IMG/VR virus record: IMGVR_UViG_3300025138_000115
Location: 1 to 37,676 of that record
DNA: 37,676 nucleotides
From: a virus
Direction: 5' to 3' (one strand)
The notes under the pieces are model-generated. The model was not told the DNA's origin. It saw nothing but the letters and a program-made list of their open reading frames with translations, and did no database searches. A program made the position numbers and the translations under genes. The number at the start of each line of letters is the position of its first letter. Position 1 is the first letter of the stretch. Shown in pieces: positions 1,556-37,676 of this stretch.

Positions 1556-1620
1556 TATTCATCCCCCCATAATCTAACGATTATAAGGGAACAAATTAGA
1601 GCCAATAAAAAGTATTCCAT
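1555..1620 (-). CDS. Single-pass membrane micropeptide (21 aa)
   Basis: MEYFLLALICSLIIVRLWGD plus a final E. It consists almost entirely of one hydrophobic helix with a charged end. Both ends join their neighbours as TAATG (stop of the 100-residue gene at 1620-1622; start of the 51-residue gene at 1555), so ribosomes could pass through by termination-reinitiation. The coupling is the main evidence; the ORF is very short. Confidence 0.5.
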   Translation of the reverse strand: MEYFLLALICSLIIVRLWGDE

Positions 1621-1922
1621 TACCACTCCTTCCTAGTTTCTGGCAAAATATGGATAACATTACCAAAAATTTCACCATCAAATAATTTGTTATAAAGTTT
1701 GGTAGCCTCAACATTGATAGGTTTAAGCCTCCATTGACCTTTTTCATCTTTTTGTTTTAGTTTGCCATTCTCATCAACTAATAAACAACCATAACTTTCA
1801 AGATCAATTCTCTCAACATAACCGCCAACGTGTTTTTGAGCCTCCTCTAATGTAGGCTCAACACCATCATAAACAGTTAATCTGCCTTCAAAGTTATTAT
1901 TAATTACGCTTACTGTTTCCAT
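1620..1922 (-). CDS. First gene of leftward accessory operon, hypothetical (100 aa)
   Basis: A 100-residue soluble acidic protein, METVSVINNNFEGRLTVYDG..., with a central KLKQKDEKGQWRLKPINVEA segment. It resembles small single-domain phage proteins of unknown role. It is the first gene after the leftward promoter (box at 1956-1984) and has an AGGAGAGAAAAC ribosome-binding site. Being promoter-proximal under an operator-controlled promoter, it could be an early host-takeover or regulatory protein; that is inference only. Confidence 0.7.
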   Translation of the reverse strand: METVSVINNNFEGRLTVYDGVEPTLEEAQKHVGGYVERIDLESYGCLLVDENGKLKQKDEKGQWRLKPINVEATKLYNKLFDGEIFGNVIHILPETRKEW

Positions 1923-1941: not shown

Positions 1942-1955
1942 TTAACATAAGTTAA
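1942..1955. promoter_or_regulatory. Operator palindrome (left control region)
   Basis: A perfect TTAAC-ATAA-GTTAA inverted repeat. It lies just after the -10 box of the leftward promoter, across the expected transcription start. The same palindrome occurs at 2788 and 31634, with near-matches at 31658 and 31679. Probably bound by the phage Cro-like protein. Confidence 0.65.
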
Positions 1956-2787: not shown

Positions 2788-2818
2788 TTAACCTATGTTA
2801 ATAGCTTGCATATATAAA
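2788..2818 (+). promoter_or_regulatory. Operator and promoter of the terL-structural operon
   Basis: A perfect palindrome TTAAC-CTAT-GTTAA (2788-2801) lies at the -35 position of a TATAAA -10 box (2813-2818). There is no good -35 hexamer. The expected start near 2825 leaves about 7 bases before the ATG at 2832. The operator would block or, by contact, activate this promoter. Confidence 0.55.
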
Positions 2819-2831
2819 ATTTTTAAACTAT

Positions 2832-3059
2832 ATGGCTTATATGGCACGTAAATTTCTACAGATAAAAAAACCTCAAACTTTATTGCATTTTCAGAATAGT
2901 ACGTATATCTATAGATATGTTCTTGTTGATAGAGTTCCTTATACTGCTACACAACATTATGGGTTTGATGATAAGACGCATATGACTACCGAAGAAATTT
3001 TTGAGTTAGCAACACCACGTAAAATACGTAGAAAATATATTATAAAAAATGACAAGTGA
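2832..3059 (+). CDS. Small basic protein before TerL (75 aa)
   Basis: MAYMARKFLQIKKPQTLL... with many aromatic residues (YIYRYVLVDRVPY) and a C-terminus of EEIFELATPRKIRRKYIIKN. It overlaps the TerL start by 11 bases, so translation is probably coupled. ATGs at 2832 and 2841 are both possible; neither has a ribosome-binding site. No known family. It may be a terminase accessory factor by position, but there is no sequence evidence for that. Confidence 0.6.
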   Translation: MAYMARKFLQIKKPQTLLHFQNSTYIYRYVLVDRVPYTATQHYGFDDKTHMTTEEIFELATPRKIRRKYIIKNDK

Positions 3060-29880: not shown

Positions 29881-30090
29881 TTATTTGGAGTAATCCCTAG
29901 CCTTAATCATTTCAAGGTAGTGTATGGCCTTCTCTATGTCTTGTAGGCCACCTTTTGAGCCATGCCTACATATGTATTTAATGGCATTTCCCTCTGCAAA
30001 AAGTAGTTTATTATCATTAATAAATTTAGCAGGTTGGATAACCATCTTTTTATAATGGTCACCCCCAATTTGTTTTTTAAAAGCACTCAT
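29881..30090 (-). CDS. DUF3310 protein (69 aa)
   Basis: IGGDHYKKMVIQPAKFINDN, NAIKYICRHGSKGGLQDIEKAIHYLEM: the complete signature of the short DUF3310 family widespread in phages, with conserved GGDHY, KYICRH and KG-x-x-D-x-x-KA. Family function is not established; it is often found with nucleotide and DNA metabolism genes. Coupled to the nuclease gene (TAATG). Confidence 0.85.
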   Translation of the reverse strand: MSAFKKQIGGDHYKKMVIQPAKFINDNKLLFAEGNAIKYICRHGSKGGLQDIEKAIHYLEMIKARDYSK

Positions 30091-30995
30091 TAAAAAGCTA
30101 CATTCATAAAGTGAGAGCAGAACTCATTAACACTACAATAGTGCTGACATCTAACATCTTCACCTTTACGTTCTACAATAGAGCAACCTTTACCTTCTAT
30201 CATTTTTTCACCAACAATAAATTGTTTAGCTAATTCTTTTGTAGGAAATAAACGCCAAGCAGATTTTCTACCGTTTTTCATAACAGCAAACTGATCTTCT
30301 TTACGCCATCTTTCTTTAGCTGTACATAAAGGTAGTTCTTTCATTTGTTCAGCGTCTTGATGTAGTTTTATTCTAGCTTTAACAAACGCATCTTGTTCTT
30401 CTTCTGACCATCTACGAATAGGTATCATAACAACTTGTTTACGTGGATAGTTGTCTGATTGCATTACCCGCATTTTAGACCAATCTCTTAATATGGCCAT
30501 AATAGATAATGATTTAACTTTAAGTATTTTATTATACCTAGTTAAATCTTTTTGGTTTTTACGACAAAGAAAATCAAGAACATTTAATTGTTGTTCCCAT
30601 TCAGCTTTACCTTTAGTCAAAGCATCAAGTGCTGACCAAGCAGAAGTACACTTAAAATCTATAAGTTTACCGTCACTTGTAAGCAAATCAAATGCACCAG
30701 ATAGTGTCCAACCGTTAGTGATGTTATCATCTTTATAATACAATCTACGTTCAGCTATATCAGTTTTAACTTTTGCTCGTTCAATAACATGGTGAACTGA
30801 TTGTCCTAATAAAGAAAATATACGATCAGATACATCCTCTTTTATGAGATCATTATTTCTCATTTGCAAGACCCTAATTCTAGGGGGTGAAATTAAACGG
30901 GTGCAAGAAATATCAGAACCACTACTATCATAGGGGTCATTTTTTACAGCCCGTTCAATTACTTTAGGTAAGTTTGAGTTGTTTGTAATAATCAT
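30090..30995 (-). CDS. PD-(D/E)XK exonuclease with Cas4/AddB-like cysteines
   Basis: A 301-residue nuclease of the RecB/Cas4-like PD-(D/E)XK group. Glu72 (HHVIERA), Asp103 (SGAFDLL), Asp113/Lys115 (LIDFKCT) and Gln135-136 (WEQQLN) form the catalytic motifs. Cys31 (SCTRLISPPRI), together with C-terminal Cys283, Cys287 and Cys293 (CQHYCSVNEFC), gives the one-plus-three cysteine arrangement of Fe-S nucleases. Probably resects DNA ends for recombination or replication, with the SSB-like protein encoded just upstream (1-base overlap). Confidence 0.82.
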   Translation of the reverse strand: MIITNNSNLPKVIERAVKNDPYDSSGSDISCTRLISPPRIRVLQMRNNDLIKEDVSDRIFSLLGQSVHHVIERAKVKTDIAERRLYYKDDNITNGWTLSGAFDLLTSDGKLIDFKCTSAWSALDALTKGKAEWEQQLNVLDFLCRKNQKDLTRYNKILKVKSLSIMAILRDWSKMRVMQSDNYPRKQVVMIPIRRWSEEEQDAFVKARIKLHQDAEQMKELPLCTAKERWRKEDQFAVMKNGRKSAWRLFPTKELAKQFIVGEKMIEGKGCSIVERKGEDVRCQHYCSVNEFCSHFMNVAF

Positions 30996-31597
30996 TAAAA
31001 TGGTATTGGACTATCACCGACACTTGCACCATTACCTTCATCACCTTGATCTTGGTTCATGCCTTCCAACTCTTTTGATCTTAAAATAATGTTTCTAATA
31101 CCTTCTGATAGGTTATTAAAAACTTCTTTTTTACCTGCTTGAAAATCCTCCATACTAAACACAACACTAGGAGTTACTTGTTCAGCAATTGGATCACCTT
31201 TTTTCATAGGCATAATAGATGATATTTTTGCTTTACCATTTTTATCCATTACATTTAGTAAACAAGTCACACCTAATAATTTACTAATATCAAATGATTG
31301 TTTTTCAGCTTCACTAAATGCTCTACCTCTCCATGATGTTAAATCATTACCAAGATTTGCTTTTTCATGTAGTGATAAAGTGTAAAACTTACTAATTGTT
31401 AGTGGTTGACCTTCACTATTATGTTCTTCTGGAGTTTCAAATATAATTAATACTTGTCTTTTCCATGTAACATTACCGTCAAAGTCTGATTTTTGTGTAC
31501 CTAAATCAATGATTTTTACGCATCTTGCTTTATGTACTCCGATTGATACACTTGGATAACGTGGTGCATCTCCACTTCCTGCTATTATACTTGTCAT
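30995..31597 (-). CDS. Single-stranded DNA-binding protein (OB-fold, SSB-like tail)
   Basis: A 200-residue protein with a beta-rich core (VHKARCVKIIDLGTQ, WKRQVLIIFETPEE, ISKFYTLSLHEKANL, LLGVTCLLNVMDKNGKAKIS) typical of phage OB-fold ssDNA-binding proteins. A glycine/acidic tail ends DSPIPF, closely like the DDDIPF tip with which bacterial SSB recruits repair proteins. It is the first gene leftward from the operator-rich control region, with AAAGGA as ribosome-binding site. It should coat ssDNA for replication and recombination. Confidence 0.72.
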   Translation of the reverse strand: MTSIIAGSGDAPRYPSVSIGVHKARCVKIIDLGTQKSDFDGNVTWKRQVLIIFETPEEHNSEGQPLTISKFYTLSLHEKANLGNDLTSWRGRAFSEAEKQSFDISKLLGVTCLLNVMDKNGKAKISSIMPMKKGDPIAEQVTPSVVFSMEDFQAGKKEVFNNLSEGIRNIILRSKELEGMNQDQGDEGNGASVGDSPIPF

Positions 31598-31633
31598 ATG
31601 TCTTTTTTCCTTTTTTTATATATTTATTATTGA

Positions 31634-31647
31634 TTAACTAGGGTTAA
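31634..31647. promoter_or_regulatory. Operator O1
   Basis: A perfect TTAAC-TAGG-GTTAA palindrome. It covers the -10 and start region of the leftward SSB promoter. First of three tandem sites; 24 bases centre to centre from O2. Confidence 0.7.
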
Positions 31648-31671
31648 ATCACAGTAATTAACCAATGTCAA
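31643..31671 (-). promoter_or_regulatory. Leftward promoter of the SSB/nuclease operon
   Basis: On the minus strand: consensus TTGACA (31671-31666), 17 bases, TTTAAC (31648-31643) preceded by TGA (extended -10). Start near 31636; leader about 39 bases. O2 lies on its -35 and O1 on its -10/start. Confidence 0.6.
31658..31671. promoter_or_regulatory. Operator O2
   Basis: TTAAC-CAAT-GTCAA: one mismatch to the perfect palindrome. The mismatched half read on the minus strand is TTGAC, the -35 of the leftward promoter, so the deviation follows from the dual use. Confidence 0.65.
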
Positions 31672-31678
31672 ATATTAA

Positions 31679-31692
31679 TTGACTTCTGTTAA
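31679..31692. promoter_or_regulatory. Operator O3
   Basis: TTGAC-TTCT-GTTAA: one mismatch, and again the mismatched half is the -35 (TTGACT) of the rightward promoter. 21 bases centre to centre from O2, about two helical turns. Confidence 0.65.
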
Positions 31693-31706
31693 TAAATTTG
31701 TATAAA
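31679..31706 (+). promoter_or_regulatory. Rightward promoter of the Cro/replication block
   Basis: TTGACT (31679-31684), 16 bases, TATAAA (31701-31706). Start expected at 31712-31714, on or just before the ATG at 31714, so the first message is leaderless. O3 overlaps the -35. Confidence 0.7.
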
Positions 31707-31713
31707 TTTTGAT

Positions 31714-31923
31714 ATGGCTACAATATTAAATGAATTAATTGACGAGTTAGATGCTAAAGCTAAAAGAATTGAAAAAGAAATCATCAATTTAGATAGATCA
31801 TCTGTAATACCAGAGCATTACAATAAGGCAGAAAGCATTTTAAAATTAACAGATAAAGGTATTCAAACAGAAGAACAATGTAAATACTTATCTAAATTAA
31901 GGAATATGAATGAGCAATTATAA
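31714..31923 (+). CDS. Small coiled-coil protein, first rightward early gene (69 aa)
   Basis: MATILNELIDELDAKAKRIE..., strongly heptad-like over residues 5-30, then KLTDKGIQTEEQCKYLSKLR. No ribosome-binding site; it probably starts from a leaderless message. It overlaps the Cro-like gene by 14 bases. Family unknown; it could be a regulatory partner or a host-directed early protein. Confidence 0.65.
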   Translation: MATILNELIDELDAKAKRIEKEIINLDRSSVIPEHYNKAESILKLTDKGIQTEEQCKYLSKLRNMNEQL

Positions 31924-32119
31924 AATAGCACAAGATAGAAAAAAGGAAGTAGTCAACCAATACGGTGGTAAAAATTTAGCTAAAATGCTTGGTATATCTC
32001 ACCCTGCTGTATCTAAATGGAAAGTTGTACCTCCCTTTCGTGCATATCAGATTGCAAAACTTGGTGATTTTGATATAGAGTACATTAGACCAGATTTACA
32101 AATTGCGCCTTTAAGGTAG
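31910..32119 (+). CDS. Cro-like helix-turn-helix repressor (69 aa)
   Basis: MSNYKIAQDRKKEVVNQYGG..., with helix-turn-helix GKNLAKMLGISHPAVSKWK (residues 20-38) and a following VVPPFRAYQIAKL helix, as in Cro/YdaS-type regulators. The turn GIS and recognition helix SHPAVSKW are intact. AAGG lies 7 bases before the ATG. It is encoded immediately beside three tandem palindromes and is the only obvious DNA-binding regulator in the genome, so it is the likely ligand of the TTAAC-N4-GTTAA sites. No CI-like gene with a protease domain is present. Confidence 0.82.
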   Translation: MSNYKIAQDRKKEVVNQYGGKNLAKMLGISHPAVSKWKVVPPFRAYQIAKLGDFDIEYIRPDLQIAPLR

Positions 32120-32162: not shown

Positions 32163-32206
32163 TTGGGGTAGTTTTTTTTACTCTCTAGTTTAGTTTTCTA
32201 CCCCAA
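32163..32206. repeat. Long-loop inverted repeat downstream of cro
   Basis: Perfect 9-base arms TTGGGGTAG (32163-32171) and CTACCCCAA (32198-32206), loop 26 bases, beginning with T8. It could form an mRNA hairpin that reduces read-through from cro to the replication genes, or an origin structure. GC-rich arms in AT-rich DNA. Confidence 0.55.
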
Positions 32207-32233
32207 TTCCCCCTTATTTAACAACAAAACTGT

Positions 32234-32310
32234 ATAGCAATGCCATAGCAATGCCATACGTTTGCTATAGCAATGCTACAAGTCTGCTATACGTCTGCTA
32301 TCGTTTTGCT
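32234..32310 (+). repeat. Seven tandem 11-bp iterons (candidate replication origin)
   Basis: Units start at 32234, 32245, 32256, 32267, 32278, 32289 and 32300. Examples: ATAGCAATGCC (twice), ATAGCAATGCT, ATACGTCTGCT. All end TGCC or TGCT, and most start ATA or AT. The 11-base step keeps each unit on the same helix face, as in plasmid and lambda-type origins. Non-coding, and just upstream of the DUF1376, primase and helicase genes. Confidence 0.75.
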
Positions 32311-32389: not shown

Positions 32390-32437
32390 TTGACAACCAT
32401 TTCTTTTTGGTCTAAAAATGAAATTAACTAAACTCAA
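32390..32437 (+). promoter_or_regulatory. Promoter of the replication genes with degenerate operator
   Basis: Consensus TTGACA (32390-32395), 17 bases, TAAAAA (32413-32418). At the expected start (about 32425) lies TTAAC-TAAA-CTCAA (32424-32437), 8 of 10 positions of the palindrome. A ribosome-binding site AAGGA follows before the ATG at 32450. Confidence 0.5.
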
Positions 32438-32449
32438 GGAATTATATAT

Positions 32450-32842
32450 ATGAGAAAATCAATCACGGATGAACAATCACCTGCGTTTCAGTTCTATGCG
32501 CAAGATTGGATCACAGACCCAAATAGAATGAAGTTATCTTTAGATGAACAAGGTGCATACATTTTATTGTTTTGTCATTGTTGGAGAAGTTTTAAAATAC
32601 TAAATGATTTAGAAATATTATCTAAAATGTGTGGATGTAGATTGCAAAAAATAGAAAAAATTTTTCCAAAAATAAAACATCTATTTACAGAAATTAAAGA
32701 GGATGGAATAAAATATCTTATTTGTAATCAAGCGGAAGAAGAAAGAAAAGAACAAGTAAAAAATAGAAAACGTAGATCGGTTGCAGGAAAACTTGGTGCT
32801 AAAATTAGATGGAAAGAAGAAAGTTTATCGGAGAGTAAATGA
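32450..32842 (+). CDS. DUF1376 (YdaU-like) replication protein
   Basis: A 130-residue protein with the DUF1376 signature PAFQFYAQDWITDPNRMKLS, LDEQGAYILLFCHCWR (about residues 11-46), followed by a winged-helix-like part and a basic tail (KNRKRRSVAGKLGAKIRWKEE). Proteins of this family are encoded in the replication modules of lambdoid and other phages and are thought to act in origin recognition. Its place directly after the iteron array fits an initiator that binds it. Start supported by AAGGA. Confidence 0.8.
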   Translation: MRKSITDEQSPAFQFYAQDWITDPNRMKLSLDEQGAYILLFCHCWRSFKILNDLEILSKMCGCRLQKIEKIFPKIKHLFTEIKEDGIKYLICNQAEEERKEQVKNRKRRSVAGKLGAKIRWKEESLSESK

Positions 32843-33045
32843 CAAAAATAATTATATTTATATTAGCTTGTTCAACTTGTGAAATAGAAAAAATAGAAAT
32901 ACTTAAACCGTTGTATAAAAGTTGTGGTGAATTTGGAAATGAAATTAGAGAAAAAACAACAACATATAAAAATGCATCTGATGATGTATGGCAAGGGAAT
33001 TATACAAAAGATGGTAAACTATTTGTAGGTTTTACTTGTGAATAG
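32839..33045 (+). CDS. Small exported protein with cysteines (68 aa)
   Basis: MTKIIIFILACSTCEIEKIE...: a hydrophobic leader ending LAC (lipobox-like, cysteine at 11), two more early and late cysteines (14, 29, 67) and a polar body. Either a lipoprotein or a disulphide-containing periplasmic protein. ATGA overlap with the DUF1376 gene. Its presence in the early operon suggests a host-envelope role such as superinfection exclusion; inference. Confidence 0.6.
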   Translation: MTKIIIFILACSTCEIEKIEILKPLYKSCGEFGNEIREKTTTYKNASDDVWQGNYTKDGKLFVGFTCE

Positions 33046-33856
33046 TTATAATGAAAATTCTCATTACGCCATGTTTATGGAGTATTTTGGCCAACATCAT
33101 TCGTTTCAAACATTTGATGACAAAGGTTTAAATAAAAGATTAATTAAACAATTACATGGTAGTCTTAAAATACATTTTAATGAATTATCTGAACTGAATA
33201 GTAAAGGTGCGGGTGTTTATTTTACAGTTAATGAAACTAATGGTCTTGGAAGAACCACTAAAAATATTATAAAAATTAGGTCTGTGTTTATAGATTTAGA
33301 TGGTACACCACTACCAGATAGTTTTGGTATTCCACCAAGTTTAATTGTAAATACTTCGCCTAAAAAATACCATGTATATTGGATAGTTAAAGATATGCCT
33401 TTAGAAACTTTTACTCTGTATCAGCAAGCATTGGCAGCTAAATTTAATTCTGATCCCGTTGTAAAAGATTTGCCTAGAATTATGCGAGTTGCAGGTTTTT
33501 ATCATCATAAGAAAAAACCATACCCTGTAAAAATATTACAATGTACAACAGCAGAGCCTTACACAATGAAAGAAATTAAAGAAGGCCTAGATTTAAAAAG
33601 GCCAGAACAAAAAACTATTAAAATGGATTATACTCCATCAACTTACAAAGGTAAGTACACGGGAACTTTAAGATATGGAATTAATGCAGGTGAACGTCAT
33701 GCACAATTAGTTAAAATTTTGGTAGCTATAAAAAAACGTGGTGAAACATTTGAGTATGCAAAAGGTGAGGCTATTGAGTTTGCTAATTCATGTGTACCAC
33801 CAGAAAATATAAATGAAGTTATGTTTCAATTAAAAGATATATGGAAAAGATATTAA
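33038..33856 (+). CDS. RepB-type DNA primase
   Basis: A 272-residue primase of the archaeo-eukaryotic superfamily (RepB_primase-like). The metal site is FIDLDG (Asp86, Asp88); the strand VNTSPKKYHVYWIV carries His112; and LPRIMRVAGFYHHK (145-158) is the typical third motif. The C-terminal GINAGERHAQLVKILVAIKK...FANSCVPP (about 213-257) matches a PriCT-like helical domain. It should synthesise primers at the nearby origin; host polymerase would extend them. It overlaps the upstream gene by 8 bases. Confidence 0.85.
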   Translation: MNSYNENSHYAMFMEYFGQHHSFQTFDDKGLNKRLIKQLHGSLKIHFNELSELNSKGAGVYFTVNETNGLGRTTKNIIKIRSVFIDLDGTPLPDSFGIPPSLIVNTSPKKYHVYWIVKDMPLETFTLYQQALAAKFNSDPVVKDLPRIMRVAGFYHHKKKPYPVKILQCTTAEPYTMKEIKEGLDLKRPEQKTIKMDYTPSTYKGKYTGTLRYGINAGERHAQLVKILVAIKKRGETFEYAKGEAIEFANSCVPPENINEVMFQLKDIWKRY

Positions 33857-33963
33857 TGAAATATATTGTAATATTTTTATTTTTAACAAGTTGTTTTGGT
33901 AGTGATTATGATTTTAACCCTACGACTACGATATTTAAACAAATAATAAAAGAAAAAAAATGA
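33856..33963 (+). CDS. Tiny lipoprotein (35 aa)
   Basis: MKYIVIFLFLTSCFGSDYDF..., then NPTTTIFKQIIKEKK. A short lysine start, hydrophobic core and lipobox LTSC (Cys13) followed by a 22-residue polar mature part. Coupled at both ends: TAATG with the primase stop and ATGA with the helicase start. Small phage lipoproteins of this size block receptors or DNA entry of competing phages, so superinfection exclusion is a reasonable guess. Confidence 0.65.
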   Translation: MKYIVIFLFLTSCFGSDYDFNPTTTIFKQIIKEKK

Positions 33964-35453
33964 ATTTATTAAGAGATTACCAAAAGAAAGCCATAGAAGA
34001 TATTAGGCAACATTTTAAGGAAGGCAAAAAGAAAATATTATTAGTTGCACCAACGGGTAGTGGTAAAACTGTTATAGCCTGCTCTATGATGGAAGCGTTA
34101 GTAAAAAATAATAGGTTTGGAATGTTTGTAGCGCATAGACGTGAACTTGTAATGCAATGTAGTAGAAAACTTGCAGACTTTGAAATAAAACATGGTGTTA
34201 TTATGGCAGGTAAAAGTGGTAGTGTTTATTCTGACGTACAAGTAGCAAGTGTTCAAACATTTGCAGCTAGAAAAGATAATGATGATTTTATAAAACCACA
34301 AGCAGATGTAATTATATTAGACGAAGCCCATAGAAGTACATCTAAAACATTTGAAGATTTAATTAAGGCCTATCCAGAGGCTTGGGTTATCGGTTTAACT
34401 GCAACGCCATGTAGAAATGATGGTCGTGGTCTTGGTAATATTTACGAAGAACTTGTCAATTGTGGTACGATTAAAGAACTAACTGCAAAAGGTTATTTAG
34501 TACCTAATAGAATAGTTGCACCATCAATTCCAGATTTACAAAATATTCGTATTATGGCAGGAGATTATGAAAAAAAAGAATTAGATAAAAGAATGAACAC
34601 ACCTAAACTTGTAGGAGATATTGTATCTCATTGGATGAAACACGGTGAGAATAGGCCAACAGTAGTATTTGGTTCATCTATTAAACATTCTAAATACATT
34701 GCTAATATCTTTAATCAAAATGGAATACCTGCAGGCCATATAGATGGAGAGATGAAAGAGATTGATAGGGAAAAAGTATTACAAGATTTAGATGATGATA
34801 AAATAAAAATAATATCTAACTGTATGGTATTGACAGAGGGTTGGGATAAACCAAAAATTTCATGTGTAATTATAGCTAGACCTACTAAATCTTATTCTAT
34901 GTATTTACAGATGGTAGGTAGAGCATTAAGGCCTGCTGAAAATAAAAAAGATACACTTATCATAGATCATTCTGGATGTGTATATGAGCATGGCTTTCCA
35001 GAAGATGCACCTAATTGGGAACTAACTTATTCTAAAATAAAAGAACGTGAGAAGAAAATAATAGAACCTATTGAAAAGCAACCATTTACTTGTGTAGAGT
35101 GTGATACGGTTTATAAACCTACAAAAGAACAACCAGAGTGTCCTAATTGTAGTTTTATGCCAACTAAAAAAGAACAAGCTATTTTAATTCAGCAAGGTAG
35201 ATTAATTGAACTACCTAAAATGAAACCAAATGTAGATGACAAGCAAAAATTTTATGCTGAATTGCTTTACTACTCTAAACAAAAAGGTTTCAAAGAGGGT
35301 TGGGCTAGTCATACTTTTAAAAGAAAGTTTGGCCATTTCCCTCATAGTAAAAAAGTATTTCCTATTGCTACAAGTAAGGAGGTAATGGGTTTTATACAGC
35401 ATTGTAATATAGCAAGAGCAAAATCATACAACATGAAGGAGTTATCAATATGA
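33960..35453 (+). CDS. SF2 DEAH-box helicase with C-terminal zinc ribbon
   Basis: A 497-residue helicase of the RecG/UvsW/RAD3-like SF2 type. N-terminal Q-like LLRDYQKKAIEDI; Walker A APTGSGKT (30-37); DEAH (121-124); LTATP (146-150); and motif VI YLQMVGRALRP in the second RecA domain. A C-terminal zinc ribbon C-x2-C...C-x2-C (CVECDTVYKPTKEQPECPNC, about 378-397) is followed by KFGHFP-type tail residues. It is probably the replicative or branch-migration helicase acting with the primase. Confidence 0.88.
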   Translation: MNLLRDYQKKAIEDIRQHFKEGKKKILLVAPTGSGKTVIACSMMEALVKNNRFGMFVAHRRELVMQCSRKLADFEIKHGVIMAGKSGSVYSDVQVASVQTFAARKDNDDFIKPQADVIILDEAHRSTSKTFEDLIKAYPEAWVIGLTATPCRNDGRGLGNIYEELVNCGTIKELTAKGYLVPNRIVAPSIPDLQNIRIMAGDYEKKELDKRMNTPKLVGDIVSHWMKHGENRPTVVFGSSIKHSKYIANIFNQNGIPAGHIDGEMKEIDREKVLQDLDDDKIKIISNCMVLTEGWDKPKISCVIIARPTKSYSMYLQMVGRALRPAENKKDTLIIDHSGCVYEHGFPEDAPNWELTYSKIKEREKKIIEPIEKQPFTCVECDTVYKPTKEQPECPNCSFMPTKKEQAILIQQGRLIELPKMKPNVDDKQKFYAELLYYSKQKGFKEGWASHTFKRKFGHFPHSKKVFPIATSKEVMGFIQHCNIARAKSYNMKELSI

Positions 35454-36125: not shown

Positions 36126-36399
36126 AGAGAAACTACATATGTCCATAGTTGCAGGTCTTGGTTGTTTAATTTGTAATAAGATGGGTTTTCCTGACAGCCC
36201 TGCTGAACTACATCATATTAAGGATAAGACGGGTATGGGTCGTAAAGCAAGTAATTTTGAGGTTATTCCATTGTGTCCAAGACATCACAGACAAGGGGTA
36301 GCTGCCTATCATTATAGCCCTAAATCATTTACTAAAAAATGGGGAACACAAAAAGAACTATTGAATGAAACATTAACTATGGTAAAGTCCAATGGATAA
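36103..36399 (+). CDS. HNH nuclease, Ref-like (RecA-dependent nuclease family)
   Basis: A 98-residue zinc-binding HNH protein: Cys21-x2-Cys24 (GCLICNKM), AELHHIKDK (His37, His38), Asn51 (SNFEVIPL) and CPRHH (Cys58, His61, His62), then WGTQKELL. This arrangement is that of the Ref/DUF968-like nucleases, P1 Ref being RecA-dependent. An upstream ATG at 36085 would add six residues. Probably makes cuts or resolves joints during recombination, or assists packaging. Confidence 0.78.
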   Translation: MKRTKSNKEKLHMSIVAGLGCLICNKMGFPDSPAELHHIKDKTGMGRKASNFEVIPLCPRHHRQGVAAYHYSPKSFTKKWGTQKELLNETLTMVKSNG

Positions 36400-37070: not shown

Positions 37071-37181
37071 TTAAAATATAATTGAACCAAGTATAAAACC
37101 AATTACAAAACAAACCCATTCACGTCTGTAATGTAATTCTAATACTTTCCAATCACTTTTAGTTTTACCAAAAATAATCAT
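37071..37181 (-). CDS. Small membrane protein, right-end allele (36 aa)
   Basis: MIIFGKTKSDWKVLELHYRR..., then one hydrophobic helix to the end (GFILGSIIF). The complete copy of the gene cut at 1..107. The ATG overlaps the TAA of the 73-residue gene. Last gene of the leftward accessory block, facing the replication block. Confidence 0.65.
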   Translation of the reverse strand: MIIFGKTKSDWKVLELHYRREWVCFVIGFILGSIIF

Positions 37182-37182
37182 T
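37079..37182. repeat. Terminal direct repeat A (right copy)
   Basis: Identical to 5-108. It marks the point where the right end enters the same locus as the left end. Confidence 0.95.
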
Positions 37183-37402
37183 AATCCTCCTTTGCTCTTT
37201 TATTTAACCAATCATGTATATCAATTGATATAGTTTCTGGCAATTCAGTTATAGTTTCTGTGTACCACGTTTTATCTTCTCTTTCCCAAGTTACAACAAC
37301 TGCCCAACCTTCTGGTTTTTTACTCATTGCTTTTTTCTTTTCATGCATTTTAGCTTTGTTTTTACTTCTTACTAAATCCAATGCGTCAAAGTCTATTGCC
37401 AT
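37181..37402 (-). CDS. Variable-locus protein X, right allele (73 aa)
   Basis: It shares the first 18 residues with the left allele (84 aa), then diverges completely: MSKKPEGWAVVVTWEREDKT..., ending DIHDWLNKRAKED. The tail has a WAVVV strand followed by TWYTETITELPE, a compact beta-type domain. TAATG junctions at both ends. Function unknown. The constant N-terminus with an exchanged C-terminus suggests domain swapping. Confidence 0.7.
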   Translation of the reverse strand: MAIDFDALDLVRSKNKAKMHEKKKAMSKKPEGWAVVVTWEREDKTWYTETITELPETISIDIHDWLNKRAKED

Positions 37403-37584
37403 TATTTTTCCCCTTCTATTGTTACAACTGTTTTTTCACTAACTAAACTTTCTTTGTCATAAGAAACAAAATTTAAAACATCATCTGGATGATCACAACA
37501 ACAATCACAAAGAGGATGTCTATAAACCTCCGTTACAGTTATTAATGCAAATTCATTTTCTAAACTTATTTTTTTTTTAGCCAT
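37402..37584 (-). CDS. Cysteine-cluster protein Y, only in the right allele (60 aa)
   Basis: MAKKKISLENEFALITVTEV..., with YRHPLCDCCCDHPDDVLNFV. The CDCCCDH cluster gives four cysteines and a flanking histidine in eight residues, plausible for metal binding. There is no counterpart between repeats A and B on the left. TAATG junctions with both neighbours. Function unknown. Confidence 0.65.
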   Translation of the reverse strand: MAKKKISLENEFALITVTEVYRHPLCDCCCDHPDDVLNFVSYDKESLVSEKTVVTIEGEK

Positions 37585-37676
37585 TATTTACCTCCTTTAT
37601 GTTCTTTATAGTGATTGTGTAAAATTAAAAATCCACCACCTCCAATAATAGTGCCAAATACAAATTCAATTGTAAA
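37578..37676. repeat. Terminal direct repeat B (right copy)
   Basis: Identical to 364-462 and running to the window edge, so the true homology probably continues. Confidence 0.95.
37584..37676 (-). CDS. Small hydrophobic membrane protein, partial copy
   Basis: The C-terminal 30 residues or so of the 50-residue membrane protein also encoded at 370..522, cut by the right edge. The sequence is identical in the shared part. Confidence 0.7.
   Translation of the reverse strand, partial: FTIEFVFGTIIGGGGFLILHNHYKEHKGGK

Follow-up and report, generated by a model that had tools for sequence, protein, structure and literature searches.

Candidate operators of a P22-family Cro at several promoters of a SAR11-type phage genome without a detected CI gene

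Studies of Cro usually treat it as an antagonist of CI. In the immC region of phage P22 (c2-OR-cro) the c2 repressor gene lies divergent from cro, and in phage lambda the recombination genes are placed to the left (PL/OL) and cro with the replication genes to the right (PR/OR) of a rex-cI block, with tandem operators overlapping the promoters. In enterobacterial phages CI occupies the same sites as Cro. SAR11 phages are abundant, and a search of the literature on Cro-only lytic phages and pelagiphage repressors yielded nothing direct, with no description of a regulon of the kind proposed here and no account of Cro-type control in SAR11 phages found.

The DNA analysed here (the window) spans a complete virus record, 37,676 bases long. 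It resembles P22 immC in the family and fold of Cro, in the 5-4-5 operators and in the autoregulatory placement of these sites, whereas an SSB/exonuclease operon stands where P22 has c2, the half-site ends in C and not in G as in P22, and extra operators lie at a distance. The likeness to lambda is in the layout, with recombination genes on the left, cro and replication genes on the right and tandem operators overlapping the promoters; unlike lambda there is no rex-cI block and no integrase, no N or Q was noted, and Cro is of the all-helical P22 type. Because cI and rex are missing between PL and PR, a single three-site array would serve both promoters. Enterobacterial prophages with the Cro recognition helix ISHPAVCRW (e.g. 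Klebsiella phage ST13-OXA48phi12.2) share a near-identical helix and the operator core TAAC-N4-GTTA with the window but have G as the outer operator base in place of T, and ST13-OXA48phi12.2 differs further in carrying a divergent gene at the place expected for cI. Divergent early operons without an integrase are also seen in Proteus phage vB_PmiP_RS51pmB, with a P22_Cro-family gene beside the primase, and in Alteromonas phage PB15, with a Cro-annotated gene in that position. The arrangement is therefore not unique, although these are unrelated phages with other recognition helices, and no clear operator array was seen among the palindromes in their gaps.

Among the annotated genomes of the phage collection the nearest to the window is that of Pelagibacter phage EXVC032P Baldr, whose host is HTCC1062; it has the same gene order, a Cro about 80% identical and six operator-like sites at the corresponding promoters. 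Differences occur in a leader with an AGGA box ahead of the first right-hand gene of Baldr and in an additional gene ahead of DUF1376. The Baldr record annotates Cro merely as a hypothetical protein, its locus tags read EXVC031PHodr, and no CDS is annotated over its SSB-like gene (31098-31688, 64.5% identical). The final 99 bases of the window are identical to positions 364-462, and 37075-37191 has a 97% match at positions 1-117; the two ends of the contig thus appear to join, so that it would hold a complete genome of about 37 kb, which bears on the statements about missing genes made below. The overlap between the ends (1-462 and 37075-37676) is imperfect beyond the 99 identical bases, with one gene present in two versions, 116-370 and 37181-37402, each beginning MAIDFDALDLVRSKNKAK, as if an assembly join had brought together two strain variants. 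No tRNA genes or known RNA families were found. The features referred to below are as follows.

31634..31647, candidate operator O1 (TTAACTAGGGTTAA, TTAAC-TAGG-GTTAA), exact; covers what is presumed to be the -10 of PL, the leftward promoter
31658..31671, candidate operator O2 (TTAACCAATGTCAA, TTAAC-CAAT-GTCAA), one mismatch; right half is the PL -35 (TTGACA, minus strand)
31679..31692, candidate operator O3 (TTGACTTCTGTTAA, TTGAC-TTCT-GTTAA), one mismatch; left half serves as the -35 of PR, the rightward promoter
1942..1955, candidate operator A, an exact copy; flanked by the promoter and the ribosome site of a leftward accessory operon
2788..2801, candidate operator B, an exact copy; ahead of a 75-aa gene (2832-3059), which precedes the terminase large subunit
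32424..32437, weak candidate operator (TTAACTAAACTCAA), two mismatches; lies between TTGACA (32390) and the replication operon
1620-1922, minus strand, first gene of the accessory operon behind site A
30090..30995, minus strand, exonuclease of the left operon (phrog_2139, E=1e-43)
30995..31597, minus strand, SSB-like gene, first of the left operon, C terminus SPIPF, OB-like model
31714..31923, plus strand, 69-aa gene that opens the right operon, no function assigned
31910..32119, plus strand, Cro-like repressor of the P22 Cro family, 69 aa, second gene of the right operon
32450..35453, plus strand, replication genes (DUF1376/primosomal, RepB-like primase, helicase)

The divergent gap is 116 bp long, with the ATG of the leftward gene at 31597 and that of the rightward gene at 31714. 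The initial annotation reported three palindromes of the pattern TTAAC-N4-GTTAA at 31634, 31658 and 31679, and these are confirmed, their starts being separated by 24 and 21 bases. Of 200,000 first-order Markov shuffles of the gap, none contained three sites when up to one mismatch per site was allowed, and 36 contained two. Over the whole window the exact pattern occurs 3 times where 0.18 would be expected, a count matched in 0 of 100 shuffles, and the shuffles of gap and window rule out a chance origin of the palindromes. When one or two mismatches are permitted the pattern is not enriched across the window, so weight is placed only on sites that are exact, clustered or conserved. The mismatches in O2 and O3 fall, as had been described for the imperfect copies, at the -35 boxes, giving TTGAC/GTCAA and hence -35 matches facing right (31679-31684) and left (31671-31666). 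PR has a -10-like TATAAA at 31701-31706. Tandem candidate operators placed between divergent promoters, as in a CI-Cro switch, are thus present; the -10 boxes are weak matches, and scans of the region for promoter consensus and terminator-like elements performed no better than shuffles. The PR -10-like box lies 8 bases ahead of the ATG at 31714, possibly giving a leaderless mRNA.

The operons to either side are largely as first described. The SSB assignment is strengthened by the OB-like model, by the SPIPF end and by top fold matches that are SSB-like, the best being PrgE (E=9e-4), an OB-fold ssDNA-binding protein. On the right, cro and the replication genes are both present, with the correction that the operon begins with the 69-aa ORF at 31714-31923 and that cro is its second gene. 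Two further elements lie just 3' of cro. At 32164-32204, GGGGTAG and CTACCCC are the arms of an inverted repeat around a long loop; in relatives the arms change in pairs (for example GGGGCAG/CTGCCCC), which points to a conserved hairpin. At 32233-32298 lie tandem repeats with a unit of about 11 bp (TATAGCAATGCC-like), followed by a CTTCATCTTCACC tract; they take varied forms in relatives and are a candidate replication origin.

The Cro-like protein matches PF14549 (P22_Cro) with E=3e-12 and 46.6 bits against a cut-off of 30.2, all 13 records compared exceed the curated cut-off of this profile, and the sequence matches P22 Cro in the PDB (1rzs). The predicted model is an all-helical helix-turn-helix fold of five helices (pLDDT 90) with 1rzs as its best PDB match (rmsd 1.2 over 48 columns, although with E=0.07). 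The designation as a Cro-like repressor is therefore retained, whereas the lambda-like label is replaced by the P22 family, the protein not being of the type of lambda's own Cro. It is the sole Cro/HTH_3-like protein detected in the window.

The recognition helix of this Cro reads ISHPAVSKW, and ISHPA(V/I)SKW is preserved in relatives. Enterobacterial Cro proteins with ISHPAVCRW have GTAAC-N4-GTTAC in all 45 distinct upstream gaps; the same operator is found in related bacterial genomes, where in several cases the ORF start is set too far upstream and only part of the site is therefore covered. One such locus, on a contig titled Chryseobacterium sp., carries the enterobacterial type of Cro and operator and may be an assembly contaminant. 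P22 Cro, with helix SDAAVSQW, has the operator TTAAG-N4-CTTAA, and mEp390 (ISHASVSGW) and 720R4 (IKHPSVSEW) have GTAGG-N4-CCTAC. That helix-operator rules exist is an established idea according to passages in PMC4488713 and PMC4997575, which cite Hall et al. 2005. As the 5-4-5 geometry is shared and the half-site varies with the helix, the phage's own Cro is the likely binder of the palindromes, the match with the enterobacterial phages counting as effectively one independent lineage. The 69-aa ORF at 31714 was dismissed as the binder since relatives lacking it retain the sites.

Conservation of the sites beside cro was one of the tests by which the initial annotation could have been refuted, and apart from O1 the sites are conserved. 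At all 43 loci with a related cro, at least two palindromes (at most 2 mismatches) lie upstream of cro, these being homologous sites among relatives and not independent evidence; the full set of three is not universal, as O1 is retained in many relatives and degenerate or lost in one group. When 15 distinct gap sequences are aligned, O3 is invariant in its two half-sites and O2 in its GTCAA, and the 4-bp centres vary. Baldr has all three sites with one or two mismatches each. In distant relatives (L031-L040) the gene corresponding to the 69-aa ORF at 31714 is absent and cro follows directly after the sites.

The list of sites given earlier holds for the gap but omitted the exact palindromes at 1942 (A) and 2788 (B), which have counterparts in Baldr at 38928 and 233, respectively. 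Eight long records contain 2-3 exact sites each, 17 in total, compared with 1 for the reversed pattern. Of 19 close homologues of the site B gene, 17 have the exact site, which is absent from the 14 distant homologues sampled. At site A the first downstream gene differs among relatives and the operator is constant, so coding constraint does not explain its retention. The weak site at 32424 has counterparts in most relatives. A profile trained on relatives with the window left out places the five main sites at ranks 1-5 in the window and the six promoter sites at ranks 1-6 in Baldr, a training set that is not independent of either genome, the sites being homologous and two Baldr sites included; A and B score highest, and O1 to O3 receive similar scores. 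A broad alignment, when used for a genome scan, gave no usable pattern. The sixth-ranked operator-like site in the window, 36373-36386 (TTAACTATGGTAAA), lies a few bases ahead of a gene at 36392. In the region 2024-2041, at the terminase small-subunit gene, a TTGCAT-17-TATAAT ends about 10 bases before the ATG, again possibly giving a leaderless mRNA. Together the conserved exact sites at 1942 and 2788 and the weak site at 32424 suggest a regulon, with likely Cro sites on at least five phage promoters.

The reported absence of CI-type and integrase genes is borne out in a genome that looks complete. Searches of the window, Baldr and ten relatives, several of the latter fragments, detected neither a tyrosine integrase or serine resolvase (Phage_integrase, Resolvase) nor an S24 repressor or second HTH_3 protein. 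The SSB-like gene occupies the place of a divergent CI-type repressor gene, and as to integrase or resolvase no means of lysogeny is apparent. Without CI there is no second state, and sites occur also at 1942, 2788 and 32424; the term genetic switch, in the two-state sense, is therefore abandoned. The circuit works like the Cro half of lambda or P22, built on a P22-class Cro, and is not a CI/Cro switch. A motif scan of 84,980 species genomes returned 12 loci, none titled SAR11, and with no lysogeny genes detected this makes an obligately lytic life style probable. The Cro-only timing role put forward in the initial annotation is, like a strictly lytic life style, an inference.

A temperate switch could still be imagined in which the partner repressor belongs to a novel family and went unrecognised, or is supplied in trans, and Cro acts as in lambda and P22. 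The operator array and the early-gene layout do recall the lambda and P22 immunity regions, and many of the phage genes have no known function, but the genes sought in the window, Baldr and the ten relatives were not detected, the place expected for cI between PL and PR is empty, and a related cro was found in no genome titled SAR11; we regard this explanation as unlikely. Still harder to sustain is a role for Cro as an activator or as a replication or packaging factor, not a repressor, at some of the sites (B and 32424). Site B leads toward the terminase and structural genes, and the weak site at 32424 and the iteron-like repeats flank the replication genes, yet every site overlaps a core promoter or start region and none is upstream of a -35.

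The half-site spacing is identical to that of the CRP/FNR family, whose sites have 5-4-5 geometry (FNR, TTGAT-N4-ATCAA; NNR-like, close to TTAAC-N4-GTCAA), and TTAAC-type sites appear in papers on that family. A host regulator of this type binding the palindromes would couple phage transcription to host physiology. Against this, the sites remain beside cro from one relative to the next, differ in other phages according to the recognition helix of Cro and are missing upstream of the distant homologues of the site B gene, leaving this the least credible of the alternatives, with a very low probability.

We consider it quite probable that the palindromes are operators of the phage's own P22-family Cro and form a CI-less, autoregulated shut-off regulon in a probably obligately lytic phage. 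Once a cell is infected, five promoters would be read by the host RNA polymerase: PL (SSB/exonuclease), PR (the small gene and cro), those of the replication genes (near 32390) and the accessory operon (near 1960), and one near 2790. The Cro expressed from PR would build up and bind the sites overlapping a -35 (O2, O3, site B) and those overlapping a -10 or start region (O1, site A, 32424), repressing PL, PR and the other promoters and hence its own expression. O2 and O3 would retain one mismatch because a half-site doubles as a -35 box. The perfect sites (O1, A, B) may fill earlier than O2 and O3, which are one base off for the sake of the -35, and the promoter of Cro itself would be among the last to close; the order of filling within the three-site array is uncertain.

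More tentatively, and with somewhat less than even confidence, this clade of SAR11 phages may use Cro alone as a genome-wide tiered shut-off, the promoters with perfect accessory and PL sites being silenced first and O3, at the promoter of Cro itself, being filled last. Taken with the comparable early regions of unrelated phages that look lytic, this would make Cro-only control a circuit type of its own. The match between helix and operator makes a concrete prediction on the specificity of P22-class Cro proteins, and a clade without CI that carries Cro, its operators and distant operators would make the stand-alone role of Cro testable in nature. If the proposal is true, Cro-only control is perhaps a widespread circuit, from which CI/Cro switches might be gained or lost.
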